This document shows positions 29,716 through 36,390 of a stretch of DNA of 64,000 bases, piece by piece. Positions within the stretch are counted from its first letter, which is position 1. Each line of letters starts with the position of its first letter. This stretch comes from Halobacillus yeomjeoni (lineage in GTDB: Bacteria; Bacillota; Bacilli; Bacillales; Halobacillaceae). The translations under genes were made by a program, and so were the position numbers. Location: positions 372,001 through 436,000 of the forward strand of contig NZ_JAIVAI010000002.1 in the NCBI RefSeq assembly GCF_020171525.1, read 5' to 3'. The notes below the pieces were generated by a model, which saw nothing but the letters and a program-made list of their open reading frames with translations, did not search any database and had not been told where the DNA came from.

Positions 29716-30468
29716 ATGAGAAAAAATACAGGTTGTGGACGTGGACACGACAAATGTCCTCCCCACCCGAAGAATGACGTAGCCAAAAACTCCAGGAGCT
29801 TACAGACGGAAGTTTATGTACAGCCTTTCGGCGATGAAGAAAAAACAGTCGTTCTTCAAGATGTCTTTATTCAGTCTTTGACTGAGGCAGACTTCCACTT
29901 GCCTACACACGCAACGGATATTAAAACGATCCGTAAAAACGTGCGCTTGACACAATGTAAAGCGATTCCGGTTATTGACAACAATCTAGCTGTCAAACTA
30001 TTCGTTGAGGGTATCGTGCACAAAAATATCCAGTACGTCGAAGATGGAACAGGTAATGTGAAAGATTACAGCATCGATGTTCCATTCAGAGCATATCACA
30101 AAGTTACATTGGCAAAGCCAATAACTGAGAGGTTCTACAGCTCGAAAAACAGCAACACATTCGAATACCGAGAGCTTGCTGATGATGGTATGGGCGCGGA
30201 TCGCTGCGAATTCGGATCATTGACATTCGAAATCAATAACGAGCCAATCCAATGCAAACTATTGGCATCAGCTGTCAACCAGCTTGATATTGTCAGCGAT
30301 TTTGATAACTGGGGACGTTTCAGAAAAGTGACAGAAAAGATGGATATCATCCTTCTGGTCAAACTTACCCAGTTACAGCAACGCTCCAGCGGCGGTGCTG
30401 ATGAGGAAAATGGCGAAGGCTCACAATCAACTGCTGCACAAGAATTCAGAAGAAGATTGGGTATCTAA
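29716..30468 (+). CDS. CsxC/SPOCS-like spore-surface protein (member 1)
   Basis: 250 residues. Cys/His-rich N terminus (CGRGHDKCPPHP), then a beta-rich region with the family core: IRKNVRLTQCKAIP, a LFVEGIVHKNIQY strand, DVPFRAYHKVTL, and a late QCKLLASAVNQLDIV segment. The tail is polar (SSGGADEENGEGS). The same LTQC...KNIQY signature occurs in two neighbouring genes. Resembles DUF3794/SPOCS and CsxC-type exosporium proteins; identity by motif recall, so moderate confidence. Ribosome site AAGGAGTG. CATATATTA upstream (29649) resembles a SigmaK -10, but I see no matching -35. Confidence 0.65.
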   Translation: MRKNTGCGRGHDKCPPHPKNDVAKNSRSLQTEVYVQPFGDEEKTVVLQDVFIQSLTEADFHLPTHATDIKTIRKNVRLTQCKAIPVIDNNLAVKLFVEGIVHKNIQYVEDGTGNVKDYSIDVPFRAYHKVTLAKPITERFYSSKNSNTFEYRELADDGMGADRCEFGSLTFEINNEPIQCKLLASAVNQLDIVSDFDNWGRFRKVTEKMDIILLVKLTQLQQRSSGGADEENGEGSQSTAAQEFRRRLGI

Positions 30469-30478
30469 TAAGAAATAA

Positions 30479-30505
30479 AGACGACTCTGATTAGAGTCGT
30501 CTTTA
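30479..30505. terminator. Bidirectional terminator between convergent spore-surface genes
   Basis: GACGACTCTGATTAGAGTCGTC with AAA and TTTAT flanks. Confidence 0.82.
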
Positions 30506-30507
30506 TC

Positions 30508-32118
30508 TTATTCTAAACATCTTATATATTGTTCCTGCAACAGATCGATACATAAACCGGCGCAGCCTTGCAGGTGGACACTGCTGTCTTTCTCCTCCAC
30601 GCTGCCATTCCAAACTAATTCCGAAGATTTCAAATCGCTTGTTATTGGATGAGAGTATTTTTGGAACTGTTCAAGGTGGAAACCCTCTGACTCTTTGAAT
30701 ATATATTCGTTATGATGGCTTTTCGGGAAATCAGGAAGCGTCTTCCAATTGACGTTTACGACTTTTTCCCAATAGACCGGGAACTTTTTCGTATGAACGG
30801 ACCCTTTCCCATGTTTACTGACATACTCGATGTCAACTTGAAAGATCCCGCTGATAAAAACCTTGGATGAAGGAGCTGCTGTTTTCGCATGAACGGAAAG
30901 GACCTCCCACTCTATCTTTGATAGTTCACACAATCCTTCCATGCTTAACGATTCTATAATGTCGATTTCCACTTGGAGGCGAGCTAAAAGAACGGGAACC
31001 TTGATTATAGAAGTTTCTTTTTCTTCACAACATTCCTCATAAGAATCATCTTCATCACAATGTTCATTGGATGGACAGCATGGGTCATCCGAAGATGCTG
31101 CCTCATAAGAGGAAGACTCCGATGAGCACATGATTTCCTCAAGGAGCTCTGGGAATTTGTGGGAAGATACGGTATCAGCGTTACAACGATCACTTGATGA
31201 CTCTTGATATTCCTCGAAGGAGTCAATAGTTTCTTCTACAAATGAAGAAGACTCCTCATAGAATTCTGGAGAGCTGTCAACACTGTGTGACGACTCATCA
31301 TAGAATGCGGAAGATTCCTCTATAATCGAAGAAGATTCTTCATAATAATCTACTTCTCCACTCTCAGTTGAAGGCTTTTCATATCTTTCTTCAAAAGCAT
31401 CGGAACTTGGTGACGGATCTCCATACGAGTCAGGAGATGCGGATGGTGATTCTTCCAACATCGAGGAAATCTCCTCATAAATCGTTTCACTGTCATCGAC
31501 TTCCCCTTCTGTACCAGCTACATATTCTTTCCCTTGTACAGAATAAAAACTTTTAATCCCATCATATTTTATCGATGAAGTACTCTCAAACGAGGAGGCG
31601 ATGTCAGCTAAGAATCCAAAATCATCCGAACCACCGCCGTAGCCCGCAGTAAAACCAGGGCTTTCTCCATCCTCTTCAATATAAGAGGATGAAGATTCTC
31701 TATTTCTACCTAAATTCTCCAACCCACGGTCATAAATACTCCTGTCAGAAGAAGGATCTTCAAACAAAGATAGGATTTCACCGAATAAAGTATCTTTTTT
31801 TATATATTGATCATCTTTTCTACCAGCACCGTCAATCATTTCTTCTCTATATTTATGGCTGGAGTCATAGAAATGATTGGTTTGATCCGGTGCTGGCGGG
31901 ATGACGATAGAACCCCCCCCTTCTCTGGACCTCTCCGGGGTATAGACACGCTTCTTTTCCGCTCGATCAATATTTTCAATATGTTCCTGGTGAATAGAAG
32001 AAGGCATTGTAAAGCTTGCAGAATCATTCCTGCCGGCTTTGGCAGATGGGGCGCGGCTGGACGATTGACGGTTGCTCCAACGAGTTTGAATGAATGTGTT
32101 TTTATCTTTTTTCATCAT
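30508..32118 (-). CDS. Ser/Glu-rich spore-surface protein with C-terminal CsxC/SPOCS-like domain (member 4)
   Basis: 536 residues in three parts. Residues 1-90 are basic and Ser/Arg-rich (QSSSRAPSAKAGRND). Residues about 90-365 are low-complexity, acidic, with repeated EESSS/YEESS/DESS units, ending in a Cys-rich patch (DDPCCPSNEHCDEDD). Residues about 370-536 form a folded domain with KVPVLLARLQVEIDI, FISGIFQVDIEY and GCAGLCIDLLQEQYIRCLE, a divergent version of the neighbouring family. It follows member 2 by 68 nt on the same strand, so an operon is likely. Two adjacent ATGs; weak ribosome site. Confidence 0.65.
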   Translation of the reverse strand: MMKKDKNTFIQTRWSNRQSSSRAPSAKAGRNDSASFTMPSSIHQEHIENIDRAEKKRVYTPERSREGGGSIVIPPAPDQTNHFYDSSHKYREEMIDGAGRKDDQYIKKDTLFGEILSLFEDPSSDRSIYDRGLENLGRNRESSSSYIEEDGESPGFTAGYGGGSDDFGFLADIASSFESTSSIKYDGIKSFYSVQGKEYVAGTEGEVDDSETIYEEISSMLEESPSASPDSYGDPSPSSDAFEERYEKPSTESGEVDYYEESSSIIEESSAFYDESSHSVDSSPEFYEESSSFVEETIDSFEEYQESSSDRCNADTVSSHKFPELLEEIMCSSESSSYEAASSDDPCCPSNEHCDEDDSYEECCEEKETSIIKVPVLLARLQVEIDIIESLSMEGLCELSKIEWEVLSVHAKTAAPSSKVFISGIFQVDIEYVSKHGKGSVHTKKFPVYWEKVVNVNWKTLPDFPKSHHNEYIFKESEGFHLEQFQKYSHPITSDLKSSELVWNGSVEEKDSSVHLQGCAGLCIDLLQEQYIRCLE

Positions 32119-32186
32119 CCTTCGAAAGGTGTTTTTCCAAAAAACATCCTTTCTCTCCCCCTTTCCTCATGAATATAAAAATTCAA

Positions 32187-32948
32187 TTAATCGTCATATT
32201 CACAATCATTCGTCGTAGAAGCCACACGGATTTGCTGATCCTGCAGCACTTTCAAACGGAGATCAAGCACCATTTTTTCTTCCACTTTTGTAAAGTAACC
32301 CTCATGGAAAGGCGCATGCCCCGGGAGCGGTACACGATCGAGCGCTTCATCCCATTCAATAATACTGCTTGAGATCAATTCACAATACGGCAGCTCATTG
32401 TAAAACTGACGGCTTTCCTGATGGAATTGGGAAAGGTCGCTTGAAATGAGCTCATCTTTCTCAGGGAATCCGGACGGAAGCGATTTAGACACAGCAAAAT
32501 CGAATTCTTCTCTGCTGTTATGATGCGGCATAACCGGCATAGATAAAAAGTCTCTGATTTCCGTTACGCATTCAAAAGGAATATCAACAGTATAAGAATG
32601 CAGATCTGAAGTGACAGATTTCGGTGTACTCTCCTCGATTTCATGAGCAGGGCTTGCGTATTGAATATTTTTTCTCACAAACCCTTTGATGAAGAGCTTA
32701 TGAGTAGGAAGCAGCAAACGGCATTGAGTTAAAGCCACTCTTTTCTTGATGTCTTTGATTTCAAGGACAGGTTCAGGGAACTTGATGGTTTCATCCAAAT
32801 TGATTTGTAAATCCAATTCCGCCAGGACGACAGGCACTTTAGAAATGATTTTCCCGATACTTACTGCCGGCTTCACCGGTGTATTATCACAATGATGAAG
32901 GTTCGCTGTACCTTTGCAGTCGAACTTGTGCAAATCTTTTTGAGTCAT
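32187..32948 (-). CDS. CsxC/SPOCS-like spore-surface protein (member 2)
   Basis: 253 residues. Family core: KVPVVLAELDLQINLDETI, then DIKKRVALTQCRLLLP, LFIKGFVRKNIQYASP and DIPFECVTEI. A C-terminal block SDLSQFHQES, LPYCELISS and IIEWDEALDR is almost the same as in member 3, so the two are recent duplicates. Two Cys in the leader (CKGTANLHHC). Ribosome site GAGGGGG. CATACGAT about 45 nt upstream resembles a SigmaE -10, but the -35 is unclear. Confidence 0.68.
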   Translation of the reverse strand: MTQKDLHKFDCKGTANLHHCDNTPVKPAVSIGKIISKVPVVLAELDLQINLDETIKFPEPVLEIKDIKKRVALTQCRLLLPTHKLFIKGFVRKNIQYASPAHEIEESTPKSVTSDLHSYTVDIPFECVTEIRDFLSMPVMPHHNSREEFDFAVSKSLPSGFPEKDELISSDLSQFHQESRQFYNELPYCELISSSIIEWDEALDRVPLPGHAPFHEGYFTKVEEKMVLDLRLKVLQDQQIRVASTTNDCEYDD

Positions 32949-33195
32949 TTATTTTCCCCCTCAAAAATTATACTTCATCGTATGAGGGATAAACGTCTAT
33001 GTTACTTAAAATAATTGTCTTCAAGGAGGCATAAGGGCGTTAGCCCTTGGTGTGTGTAGGGTTTTCTTGAAAAGAAATATTTTGAATTAAGGATGTCCCA
33101 GCGCCAGGACTTGCTTGATGACTCGTCCTACTTGTAAGAAAACACTCCTTTTTCATATGAAAATCATCTCACCTTTAAAAATGTCCTAAAATAAA

Positions 33196-33222
33196 ACCAC
33201 CCCATACATCCGAGGTGGTTAT
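33196..33222 (-). terminator. Terminator after spore-surface member 3
   Basis: Minus strand AACCACCTCGG/TGGGGTGGTT followed by TTATTTTAGG, near the end of the downstream gene. Confidence 0.75.
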
Positions 33223-33229
33223 GCCTGAT

Positions 33230-33991
33230 TTAAAATACTCCGAAGCTTACTTGCTGACTTTGCAACACTCTGATGTGGAATGACAACATCATCTTCTCCA
33301 GCACGTGATGGAAGTAGCCTTCATCTTCAGGACCATCTCCAAGGCTTCGTCTGTCAGTAGCCTCATCCCACTCGATGATTTCACTGGAAACAAGTTCGCA
33401 GAATGGAAGATCGTTGTAATGTTGAGAACTCTGCTGGTGGAACTGAGAAAGATCGCTAGATAAATACTTATCTTTTTCAGGGAACCCATTACCTAGATCC
33501 TGTGAACGGAAGAAGTCGAACTCTCTTCTTGTGTTTCGGGTCGGTAATAAAACTTCATTCGCCAATTCGACCGTAGCCATACATTCAAAAGGAATGTTTG
33601 TAGTCAAAGATTTCATTTCAGAAGAGATGCATTCCCCTTTTTCATTGTGAGTAGGAGAAGCGTATTGAATATTCTTCCTTACGAACCCTTTGATGAACAG
33701 AGGGAACGGTCCTGTGGAACGGTCGTTATCGGAATCCGAAGACGGTGTCATAAGACGGCACTGAGTGAGGACGACTCTCTTCTTGATATCTTTGATTTCC
33801 AACACAGGGTGTTCAAATTCAATGTTCGCTACTAAATGGCTTGTAATAGTAAAGTTACCCAATACAACTGGAAGTTTTACCGGCACACCAGCTCCGATTG
33901 TAGTCGGTGGACTAGTAATTTCTACTCCGCGGCATTGTTCAACATTGGCGGACGTATTCAAATTGACACATTGTTTATTTTCGTTACTCAT
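33230..33991 (-). CDS. CsxC/SPOCS-like spore-surface protein (member 3)
   Basis: 253 residues from MSNENKQCVNLN. Contains KLPVVLGNFTITSHL, DIKKRVVLTQCRLMTP, LFIKGFVRKNIQYASP, NIPFECMATVEL and the SDLSQFHQQS, LPFCELVSS and IIEWDEATDR block shared with member 2. An acidic insert (SSDSDNDRST) interrupts the core. The ATG at 33991 follows AAAGGAGGAAA; the longer ORF start was rejected. CATAACATA upstream resembles a SigmaK -10 with an AC only 14 nt away. Divergent from the actin gene. Confidence 0.7.
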   Translation of the reverse strand: MSNENKQCVNLNTSANVEQCRGVEITSPPTTIGAGVPVKLPVVLGNFTITSHLVANIEFEHPVLEIKDIKKRVVLTQCRLMTPSSDSDNDRSTGPFPLFIKGFVRKNIQYASPTHNEKGECISSEMKSLTTNIPFECMATVELANEVLLPTRNTRREFDFFRSQDLGNGFPEKDKYLSSDLSQFHQQSSQHYNDLPFCELVSSEIIEWDEATDRRSLGDGPEDEGYFHHVLEKMMLSFHIRVLQSQQVSFGVF

Positions 33992-34130
33992 GAGTTTTTC
34001 CTCCTTTGAAATAACCTCCCTGTATGTTATGCGTTCTGAAATGCCGTGCATAGTTATATGTATTAGAACAATAGCGGATTTTTATAATAAACGCCTTTTC
34101 TCATTTTTCCATCAAGTTTGAGAAGGACCA

Positions 34131-34161
34131 GCACACAAATCCGCCCATTTTGCATAGGCTA
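34131..34161 (+). promoter_or_regulatory. SigmaK-like promoter ahead of the actin-like gene
   Basis: CACAC (-35 type, AC at 34135-34136), 16-nt spacer, CATAGGCTA (34153-34161), matching the SigmaK -10 form CATAnnnTA. Transcription would begin near 34168, right at the ribosome site AGGAGGT (34169-34175); the short leader is a caveat. Confidence 0.6.
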
Positions 34162-34183
34162 ATTCATCAGGAGGTCGATCAAC

Positions 34184-35374
34184 ATGTCAAAGAACAACAT
34201 TTTTGCTGTGGACGTCGGAAACAGCTGGTATAAAGTCATCGCTTCCGACGAAGGCGAGTTGGTGGAATATCAACTCCCGAATGCCATCGCTTTATTTGAT
34301 GAAGAATTTTACGAAAAACCATATGACGACGAAGATATAGACTTTGAAGAAAACTTGATCGTCGAAGTGAAAAGTGCGTCTGTCAAAGACCGGCGTGAAA
34401 TCTATTACATCGGGAAGGCAGCGATGAGACAACGCAATGTCAGCCTCACTGCTTTCAATAACCAAAAAATTGATGAAGAACGGACTTATATCCTTCTACA
34501 TTCGATCATCGCGTATCATGCAGCTCTCTCCAGCCCGTCGGAAACCGAAATCAATTATTACATCGATCAATTAGCTGTCTCCCTTCCCACAACCCAATAT
34601 AAAGAGAAGAAATCCGTTTTCAAAGACCGCTTGAAAGGCGTGCACACCGTCATCTTCCATAAAGCACCTGGGATCCAGGATCCTAAAGAAATTGCTGTGA
34701 AAATCCACATTGATGATGTCATCATCGGTGCAGAAGGGGCTCTAGCTTACTTGAGCCTTACTCGGGACCCTGATACGTTGAACGTCTATAATGATGATCT
34801 GGTCAAAGACTCACGGAAAGGAATCATCATCGGGGATTTAGGCGGGGATTCAGTCGACTTTGTCGGGATCAAGAACAACAAGCCCGTTGCCTCTGTGGAA
34901 GGGGAACAATTCGGCATCAATCAATTTTTAGATAATATCATTCAAAAAGTCAGTAAAAATGAACTCTACAAATTCAACTCCAGATCCGAGCTTGAGGAGA
35001 AATTGGCAGCTGGTCAATCTGAATGGTATGTAGAGCCATTTGCAGGTGTGAAGAAGGATATAAGCAAATACATCATCCCTCAGCTGAAAGCAATGGCCAT
35101 CAAGTACCTGGAACACTTCGACCGGGTCAGGAGCAGCTCGAATGAAATTAACGGAGCTGTTCAGTATATCGCTGTTGGAGGTGCTGCCGAAATTGCCATG
35201 AGGCAGATCAAAGAAGCGGCGGTCAAATGGAGTGAACGGGGACGCCCGATCGAGTTGTATTTCCCTGAAAACATGGCAAAACTGAACGTCCAAGGGTTAT
35301 TCATCTTAGCTAAAATGAATCAACTGAAGAAAGAAAAGAACAATGAAACTGAATTTGTGCTGTCAAAAAATTAA
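34184..35374 (+). CDS. ParM/StbA (Alp7A-type) actin-like ATPase
   Basis: 396 residues with the actin-fold nucleotide site: phosphate-1 loop DVGNSWYK at 10-17, phosphate-2 loop GDLGGDSVDFV at 217-227 and adenosine loop IAVGGAAEI at 329-337. The FPENMAKLNVQGLFILAK end is typical of plasmid actins of Gram-positive bacteria. Ribosome site AGGAGGT. Plasmid relatives build dynamic filaments that move DNA with a small adaptor. Here it is chromosomal, among spore-surface genes, with a SigmaK-like promoter, and no repeated parC-like sites were seen. The 35387 gene follows after 12 nt. Confidence 0.85.
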   Translation: MSKNNIFAVDVGNSWYKVIASDEGELVEYQLPNAIALFDEEFYEKPYDDEDIDFEENLIVEVKSASVKDRREIYYIGKAAMRQRNVSLTAFNNQKIDEERTYILLHSIIAYHAALSSPSETEINYYIDQLAVSLPTTQYKEKKSVFKDRLKGVHTVIFHKAPGIQDPKEIAVKIHIDDVIIGAEGALAYLSLTRDPDTLNVYNDDLVKDSRKGIIIGDLGGDSVDFVGIKNNKPVASVEGEQFGINQFLDNIIQKVSKNELYKFNSRSELEEKLAAGQSEWYVEPFAGVKKDISKYIIPQLKAMAIKYLEHFDRVRSSSNEINGAVQYIAVGGAAEIAMRQIKEAAVKWSERGRPIELYFPENMAKLNVQGLFILAKMNQLKKEKNNETEFVLSKN

Positions 35375-35386
35375 AGGGTGAGTATT

Positions 35387-35755
35387 ATGTCAAGAATTTA
35401 CAGGGATTACTTCAGTCATACTCTACTCACAATTCCTGACACGTTCATCGATGTCAAGACAGGGGATTCCCAGACTGTCGCCCCTAAAGTCATAGAGGAG
35501 ATCGAATACCATTCCAAGAACAATACACTGCAGCACCTGATCTTCTCTGCTCTTCAGAGTTATCTCTATGAGAAACGGAATACGTCCGTAGCTACGAGTG
35601 ACGTACTGCTCCAGTTGTTGGAAATAAAAAGAATGTTGAATGGTGGAGGCGGGAATCCTCACGAAGTGAGTAAAAGAACACATGAAAAACCACCTGTGTC
35701 TGAAAAGGTGGATTTGAAAGAGATCGAGGACCTTCTCGAAGCATTCGGGGGATAA
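35387..35755 (+). CDS. Small partner of the actin-like protein, unknown (ParR/Alp7R-sized)
   Basis: 122 residues from MSRIYRDYFSHTLL, ribosome site AAAGGGTGA, 12 nt after the actin gene. The N-terminal half is mixed beta/alpha (LTIPDTFIDVKTGD), then a helical LQHLIFSALQSYLYEK segment, a Gly-rich hinge (NGGGGNP) and an acidic C-terminal helix DLKEIEDLLEAFGG. The position matches that of adaptors in plasmid par operons, and the amphipathic C-terminal helix could bind the filament. No homology was recognised, so the role is inference. Confidence 0.6.
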   Translation: MSRIYRDYFSHTLLTIPDTFIDVKTGDSQTVAPKVIEEIEYHSKNNTLQHLIFSALQSYLYEKRNTSVATSDVLLQLLEIKRMLNGGGGNPHEVSKRTHEKPPVSEKVDLKEIEDLLEAFGG

Positions 35756-35766
35756 CTTATGTATCA

Positions 35767-35797
35767 AAGGCAGCCTGGTGGATGCAGGCTGCCTTCT
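35767..35797. terminator. Terminator between the actin operon and the CotY/Z-like gene
   Basis: GGCAGCCTGGTGGATGCAGGCTGCC hairpin with a TTCTTTG tail on the plus strand. Confidence 0.8.
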
Positions 35798-35829
35798 TTG
35801 TTGATTCGTAAATAATTCCGACGAGAAGA

Positions 35830-36390
35830 CTAGCACAAATATACGGCAGGAAGACAAGTGACCGCACAAAAACAAGATAGATCGACATTGATGCAGATTC
35901 CTGTACCTACTAAATCATCCAAGTATTTGTGATCTACTTGGTCGCAGGCGGAACGTTTCGGGCACTTTCCATCCTTACCTTTTTCATGCTTCAAGTCAGA
36001 TTTGAACACAAGCAATTCGAGGACAGCACATTTTTTATCCAAGTCTTTCACTTTGAATATGAATGTCTCGACGCATTTGAACTTCGTTTTCTTAGAGTGG
36101 CATGTGTAGGTGGTAACTCCAGTCCCTTTATAAGGGTGACATCCGCAATATAACATGACCGGAACCGTGTTTTTCTTTACCTTCTTCTTTTCGCCTAACA
36201 AATCTTCAATCGATCTTTTGCAGGACGTGTGGCAGTCATTATGTTTTTCTGCTGCTTCCTGTGCATATAGAATCGCATCCAGAACATCTTCTACACAGTT
36301 TTTATAATGTTTCGTTTTGCCACAGTCATTTTTATAATCGTCTTTAGATTCGTAGTCGTAACTCTCACTTAAATATTCGTTGAAACTCAT
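35830..36390 (-). CDS. CotY/CotZ (ExsY)-family spore outer-layer protein
   Basis: 186 residues, very Cys-rich. The N-terminal NCVEDVLDAILYAQEAAEKH matches the start of the CotY/CotZ/ExsY family, followed by HTSCKRSIEDLL, VPVMLYCGCHPY and a FKVKDLDKKCAVLELLVF beta block. The end is Cys-rich (CFCAVTCLPAVYLC). Family members self-assemble into crosslinked sheets of the spore crust or exosporium. Ribosome site CGGAGGAG. It closes the spore-surface island and is convergent with the actin operon. Confidence 0.85.
   Translation of the reverse strand: MSFNEYLSESYDYESKDDYKNDCGKTKHYKNCVEDVLDAILYAQEAAEKHNDCHTSCKRSIEDLLGEKKKVKKNTVPVMLYCGCHPYKGTGVTTYTCHSKKTKFKCVETFIFKVKDLDKKCAVLELLVFKSDLKHEKGKDGKCPKRSACDQVDHKYLDDLVGTGICINVDLSCFCAVTCLPAVYLC

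Follow-up and report, generated by a model that had tools for sequence, protein, structure and literature searches.

Why should an actin of the plasmid-partition type lie among genes for the spore surface? The question is raised by a stretch of the Halobacillus yeomjeoni genome (the window: 64,000 nucleotides, positions 372001-436000 of the 461-kb contig NZ_JAIVAI010000002.1, in a genome of 3.27 Mb), in which an Alp7A/ParM-type actin gene and a small gene behind it, here called the partner, are surrounded by four CsxC-like genes and one for a CotZ-family coat protein. As established by sequence comparison, the linkage is conserved, the actin is inherited together with a CsxC gene, its promoter is conserved, and both iterons and a ParR-type adaptor are absent. 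We lean, if only modestly, towards a partition actin domesticated into a CsxC/CotZ outer-spore-layer module, where it would act late in the mother cell and take part in envelope assembly through its partner.

The actin and its linkage to CsxC genes

The actin matches the Pfam families ALP_N (E = 1e-13) and Alp7A_like_C (E = 2e-6), both above the curated cut-off, and the PHROG family 'partition protein' (E = 5e-24); Pfam StbA_N (PF06406) gave no match to it and was equally silent on the controls. Its nucleotide loops are complete (D10, G12-N13-S14 and Y16-K17; D218-LGGD-222; V331-GGA-334), and the loop residues together with E184 are invariant across 41 aligned orthologues, with numbering related to that of Alp7A through a computed alignment. 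The catalytic status of individual loop residues and of E184 is assumed here. By sequence and fold only, the protein belongs to the actin-fold ATPases of the ParM/Alp class, and it would be expected to form ATP-dependent filaments. The gene is under purifying selection. In a FastTree phylogeny, the 41 spore-locus actins form one clade (support 0.80, stem 1.46), with mean distances of 0.57 inside the clade and 4.7 to other actins.

Across 29.7-36.4 kb of the window the gene order is csx250 (+), csx536 (-), csx253 (-), csx273 (-), actin (+), partner (+) and cotZ (-), with the following features:

34184-35374, + strand: Alp7A/ParM-type actin, 396 amino acids (aa), assigned by sequence families and fold
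35378-35755, + strand: partner, 125 aa from GTG 35378 or 122 aa from ATG 35387
34131-34161, + strand: sigma-K-like promoter, GCACA (34131-34135), 16-bp gap, GCATAGGCTA (34152-34161)
32187-32948, - strand: csx253, CsxC-family protein, 253 aa (NCBIfam E = 3e-80), whose orthologue co-occurs with the actin
33230-34051, - strand: csx273, CsxC-family protein, 273 aa, divergent from the actin (NCBIfam E = 2e-74)
29716-30468, + strand: csx250, CsxC-family protein, 250 aa (NCBIfam E = 1e-47)
30508-32118, - strand: csx536, 536 aa, rich in Ser/Asp/Glu in its N-terminal part and CsxC-like but divergent in its C-terminal part (NCBIfam E = 3e-5)
35830-36390, - strand: CotZ-family spore coat protein, 186 aa (Pfam E = 3e-51)
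35767-35795, + strand: terminator-like hairpin of 11 pairs, 3' of the partner gene (consensus scan only)

Three of the four csx genes exceed the NCBIfam CsxC cut-off of 135 bits (162.5, 269.2 and 250.3 bits), csx536 is a weak match below it (24.3 bits), and CotZ scores 174.3 bits against a Pfam cut-off of 24. The initial annotation, made from these letters alone, had read here a complete ParM/Alp7A-type actin with intact loops, a 122-aa partner, four CsxC-like genes and a CotY/CotZ-like gene; all of this stands, except that one of the four CsxC genes is only a weak match. That gene, csx536, has a long Ser/Asp/Glu-rich stretch and DNA-level repeats at 31228-31486, and its clear homologues range from 317 to 667 aa, a spread in length that would suit a disordered surface protein.

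A single scan across genomes of named species yielded 75 actin loci. Their records carry the names of 17 Bacillales genera (Halobacillus, Bacillus, Cytobacillus, Mesobacillus, Rossellomorea, Niallia, Neobacillus, Metabacillus, Priestia, Lederbergia, Solibacillus, Sporosarcina, Oceanobacillus, Pontibacillus, Thalassobacillus, Ornithinibacillus and Compostibacillus), with one further record each from Pseudomonas, Chryseobacterium, Paenibacillus and a metagenome-assembled genome. Several lie on contigs of about 4 Mb, and one (L097) on a complete chromosome. Profile searches found the partner in 72/75 loci, csx253 also in 72, csx536 in 71, csx273 in 63, csx250 in 61 and CotZ, at over 100 bits, in 46. 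Contig ends explain four of the six misses of partner and csx253: L086 and L138 end before the partner, and L105 and L134 are cut short of csx253, leaving L140, with a broken partner, and L135, truly without csx253. When all open reading frames (ORFs) of at least 90 aa were clustered in 73 loci (excluding L133 and L140, where the actin frame is split), the actin was present in 73, CsxC in 71, the partner in 69 and CotZ in 55, and the next commonest gene in 12. As the content of the module is constant and other neighbours recur in at most 12 of the 73 loci, the module stays together and its surroundings change; the linkage, which the initial annotation had proposed to search for, is not that of a single strain.

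A few of these loci are unusual. Those filed under Pseudomonas sp. ISL-84 (L071), Chryseobacterium sp. ISL-80 (L107) and Paenibacillus sp. FSL R5-0490 (L093) probably come from mislabelled or contaminated assemblies. In L135 (Ornithinibacillus halotolerans), csx253, csx536 and csx250 were not found, csx273 is a weak remnant, the actin frame is split and the promoter is changed, which may reflect either decay of the entire module or poor sequence. Decay or poor sequence may likewise account for the split actin frames of L133 and of L140 (Bacillus sp. J33), the latter with partner and cotZ seemingly broken too.

The actin is also co-inherited with csx253. Among 44 genomes of the family, 22 carry an orthologous actin (at least 71% identity; one cut by a contig end) and the same 22 a strong csx253 orthologue (E < 1e-100), both with a patchy presence inside three genera; two others (G021 and G030) have a csx250-type gene only. 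This set shares genomes with the 75 loci, and the counts are not additive. Within 299 genomes of the order, a set overlapping that of the family, 23 have an actin orthologue (E < 1e-200) and 24 a csx253 orthologue (>350 bits), with 23 in common, G517 being the one with csx253 but no actin; across 398 genomes of the class the actin orthologue and the partner occur in the same five. When the actin profile was run against 20 stretches with CsxC genes elsewhere, two matches were obtained. One (L150) has no CsxC gene on the same stretch; the other (L152, G148:C89), on a 3.7-kb contig that ends in a CsxC fragment, is a divergent 360-aa actin and might be a second, independent actin-CsxC pairing.

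Promoter and partner

Upstream of the actin orthologues, a sigma-K-like promoter recurs as GGTACTTGCACA and, after a gap, GCATAGGATTCA. Of 73 regions upstream of the actin (from the window and 72 loci), 72 contain the pattern GCAC-N16-19-CATAnnnT, compared with 10/798 other ORFs of the same loci. Because the start codons of these control ORFs are uncurated, a start-free control of tiled 75-mers was added, in which the pattern occurs in 30 of 38,703. The sole actin upstream region lacking it is that of L135, with its split actin frame and no csx253. We take AC and CATA to be letters of the sigma-K consensus. All 22 actin-bearing genomes of the family have SigK above cut-off, and the three of the 44 that do not are all without the actin. 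In the available text of Eichenberger et al. 2004 (PMC517825), the sigma K legend gives a five-nucleotide -35 element, a ten-nucleotide -10 element and a gap of 14-16 bp, with which the element sizes and gap of the actin promoter agree. To judge from its letters, the promoter argues against expression of the actin in vegetative cells only.

These patterns bear on whether the actin is simply hitch-hiking, that is, serves some unrelated function, in housekeeping or in a mobile element, and merely adjoins CsxC genes. CsxC genes do occur without the actin, as this would allow. Against it stand the module's kept content amid changing flanks, the perfect co-occurrence with csx253 in 44 genomes despite patchy presence, the sporulation-type promoter, and the lack of plasmid or phage orthologues: among 72,556 plasmids no actin orthologue was found, the 23 matching records all being 24-32% identical, and a phage search with the actin returned no relatives. 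We regard mere adjacency as highly improbable.

The partner ORF starts 3 bp beyond the actin stop. In its predicted model (predicted local distance difference test score, pLDDT, 69), an N-domain of extra strands, then a strand and two helices, is followed by a low-confidence linker and a conserved C-terminal helix with the motif EIEDLLEAFGG; fold searches with this model gave no confident match. The window partner matches no family in Pfam or NCBIfam at E up to 1. Searches with 56 partner sequences yielded scattered weak matches in Pfam (DUF7923 in 8/56, best E 0.005) and, in NCBIfam, 22 families matched weakly by one member each, and there was no match to the partner among the 72,556 plasmids at E up to 1. 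The net charge of the N-domain (mean -1.9 over the 56 sequences) was also compared with that of adaptors, proved too weak a criterion and was left unused. The partner appears to be a new protein family, outside the ParR-type family of the actin's relatives.

Comparison with partition systems

How far does the locus resemble a plasmid partition system? The small downstream gene is itself a shared feature, being found 3' of the actin in 7/8 plasmid stretches (the eighth, L172, ends 165 bp past the actin). Of these seven small proteins, six are alike, and like the partner of a chromosomal paralogue encoded in the genome of the window, with starts resembling 'TISFRLPxDTP', and we read them as putative ribbon-helix-helix adaptors of the ParR type. 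The profile of the 56 spore-locus partners did not match an alignment of 16 such adaptors (hhalign 1.2%), whereas the controls gave 99.9% for plasmid adaptors versus paralogue-set partners and 99.6% for actins versus actins.

Repeats were likewise not found in the 132-bp region upstream of the window actin (34052-34183), a centromere elsewhere not being sought, and the only repeat within 33900-34300 is a 13-nt sequence that occurs twice within the actin gene. The same search recovered a six-copy 33-nt array 5' of the paralogue and two-copy repeats 5' of six plasmid actins, in upstream regions longer than that of the window (401-2177 bp versus 132 bp). With a crude repeat count in equal 300-bp regions, the window and 72 spore loci show no excess (mean 2.68 versus 2.63 resampled), compared with 5.90 versus 3.28 for ten paralogue-set regions, one of which (L023) groups with a plasmid actin in the tree. 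For seven plasmids the separation is modest only (4.43 versus 3.49 resampled; maximum 6); the plasmid repeat evidence therefore rests on the longer-region search, in which repeats are mostly two-copy. No replication or mobile genes were seen on reading the ORF list of 24-42 kb or in family scans of ten proteins, these being the only checks made. An absence of iteron-like repeats, replication genes and mobile remnants had been reported in the initial annotation, and these searches agree with it; nor is there close identity to a plasmid partition locus, which it had named as a possible refutation. An ordinary plasmid-partition reading was accordingly dropped, as repeats, a plasmid orthologue, a plasmid partner and phage relatives were all sought, and all were negative.

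The paralogue, a second chromosomal Alp-type actin of 395 aa, is accompanied by a 200-aa plasmid-type adaptor (L047:5050-6849; G000:C4:51049-52848) and has its repeat array upstream, at L047:6938-7121. By eye, its neighbours include FtsX-like and M23-peptidase-like genes. Distant matches of this kind occur in 41/44 family genomes, that of G037 grouping with a plasmid actin. Its parts suggest an intact partition-type system on the chromosome.

DNA segregation in disguise would require the partner to be a very divergent DNA-binding adaptor, and the filaments to move the chromosomal DNA of the mother cell, or anchor it, at a late stage of sporulation. Although the actin is of the partition class, the gene order is that of the plasmids, and the strand and two helices predicted for the partner are loosely ribbon-helix-helix-like, such a role fits poorly with the lack of upstream repeat excess beside a paralogue that has a six-copy array, with the failed profile comparison, with a genome that already has a chromosomal actin with ParR-type adaptor and repeats, and with the actin's link to CsxC genes. 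We consider it quite unlikely.

A proposed role in the outer spore layer

We therefore return to domestication into the spore module. From these comparisons we infer polymerisation, docking, cargo, timing and role as follows. A plasmid-partition-type actin would have been domesticated in an ancestor and tied to the CsxC/CotZ outer-spore-layer module. Actin and partner would be made as an operon, late in the mother cell, from the sigma-K-type promoter. The conserved C-terminal helix of the partner, at the end of a flexible linker, may bind the filament in the manner of ParR tails, and its N-domain, which falls outside the ParR-type family, would hold a new cargo. The likeliest cargo would be part of the envelope, either CsxC/CotZ or the outer surface of the forespore; the filaments would then place the outer layer, or act as a scaffold for it, as it is assembled around the spore.

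Several observations weigh against this proposal. Sporulation genes can cluster without physical interaction of their products. Upstream of the csx and cotZ genes, whose starts are uncurated, the simple sigma-K pattern is weak or no commoner than background: it occurs 5' of csx253 in 20/72, csx273 in 7/63, csx250 in 10/61, csx536 in 6/70, cotZ in 2/46 and the partner in 0/72, and in 5-8% of shuffles. Nor is the module uniform, csx273 being absent or below 100 bits in 12/75 loci and CotZ missing near the actin in 18/73 by clustering. The modelled N-domain of the partner, with a strand and then two helices, could be a remote DNA-binding fold. Finally, CsxC matches above the cut-off are present in 37/398 class genomes, of which only five have the orthologous actin, and a 17-kb stretch of genome G517 holds csx253, csx536 and csx250 but lacks csx273, actin, partner and cotZ. 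As G517 has these csx genes without the actin, a CsxC layer does not need it; the co-occurrence pattern indicates that the actin depends on the CsxC context and not the reverse. The G517 stretch (L185, G517:C1:2604000-2621000) is a natural experiment for the contribution of the actin half.

Alternatively, the actin could be a structural building block, its filaments packed into the exosporium or an appendage and not serving as a transient assembly tool. This reading, which we hold to be unlikely, must accommodate invariant nucleotide-binding residues and E184 in the 41 orthologues, suggestive of ATP cycling, and a private partner, which argues for a cargo system; it would suit an actin among spore-surface genes with a late-type promoter, and the filaments of one chromosomal ParM do remain stable after hydrolysis (available text of PMC12270681).

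Known systems offer partial parallels to a domesticated spore-locus actin. Alp7A of Bacillus subtilis (PDB 5ec0) is plasmid-borne, on what we take to be pLS20, whereas the spore-locus actin is chromosomal, about 20% identical, without an upstream repeat array and with a partner unlike the adaptors of plasmid relatives. MamK (PDB 5ljv) is likewise a bacterial actin that organises a cell structure, the magnetosomes. The nearest precedent is FcmB/FcmC, probably the system of PDB entry CorM/CorR (9rmi). As described in the available part of PMC12645912, this plasmid-derived actin pair controls cell shape in filamentous cyanobacteria and shares with our pair a partition actin with a downstream partner, chromosomal domestication and, as proposed for ours, a non-DNA role. 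Chromosomal ParMs (Dh-cParM1, PDB 8x1i, and Cb-cParM) are also of the partition class and conserved on chromosomes. In the accessible portion of PMC12270681, some are said to be conserved in Bacillus, their role is described as unknown and one beyond plasmids is suspected; ribbon-helix-helix motifs are predicted there for the ParRs of Desulfitobacterium, and the legend to a figure places a 'sporulation-specific' amidase among the conserved neighbours of Clostridium Cb-cParM. The spore-locus actin has both the chromosomal conservation and the adjacent partner that mark domesticated partition actins.

On the spore side, CsxC was discovered in the exosporium of Clostridium sporogenes; it is of the same family as the actin's neighbours, and the available text of that source (PMC4942563) mentions no linkage to an actin. 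Bacillus horneckiae is said to possess an exosporium (excerpt of PMC7693761), and strain 1P01SC carries the module (L090). Judged by titles and abstract openings, with subscription journals mostly uncovered, no ParM tied to the spore surface was found among the papers listed. The initial annotation had suggested a late mother-cell role in organising the spore outer layer or an appendage. The link to spores has good support from the linkage in 75 loci, the lack of a close plasmid locus and the conserved sigma-K-like promoter; the role in a layer or appendage is what we infer.

In kind, then, the actin is a known one, a domesticated partition actin; its partner family is new, and so, probably, is its task in constructing the outer layer of the spore. 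More tentatively, and at somewhat less than even chances, this may be an actin cytoskeleton dedicated to the endospore outer layer, its DNA adaptor replaced by a new family that couples filaments to exosporium-type proteins. If so, it would join FcmB/FcmC as another independent instance in which machinery for plasmid partition has been put to use in building the cell, here with the adaptor apparently exchanged, and the ordinary-looking partition-type actin with its repeat array in the same genome would serve as a built-in control. How the exosporium comes to enclose the forespore as a shell remains poorly understood (available text of PMC6222130), and a conserved actin with a private partner would provide a direct, testable handle on it.

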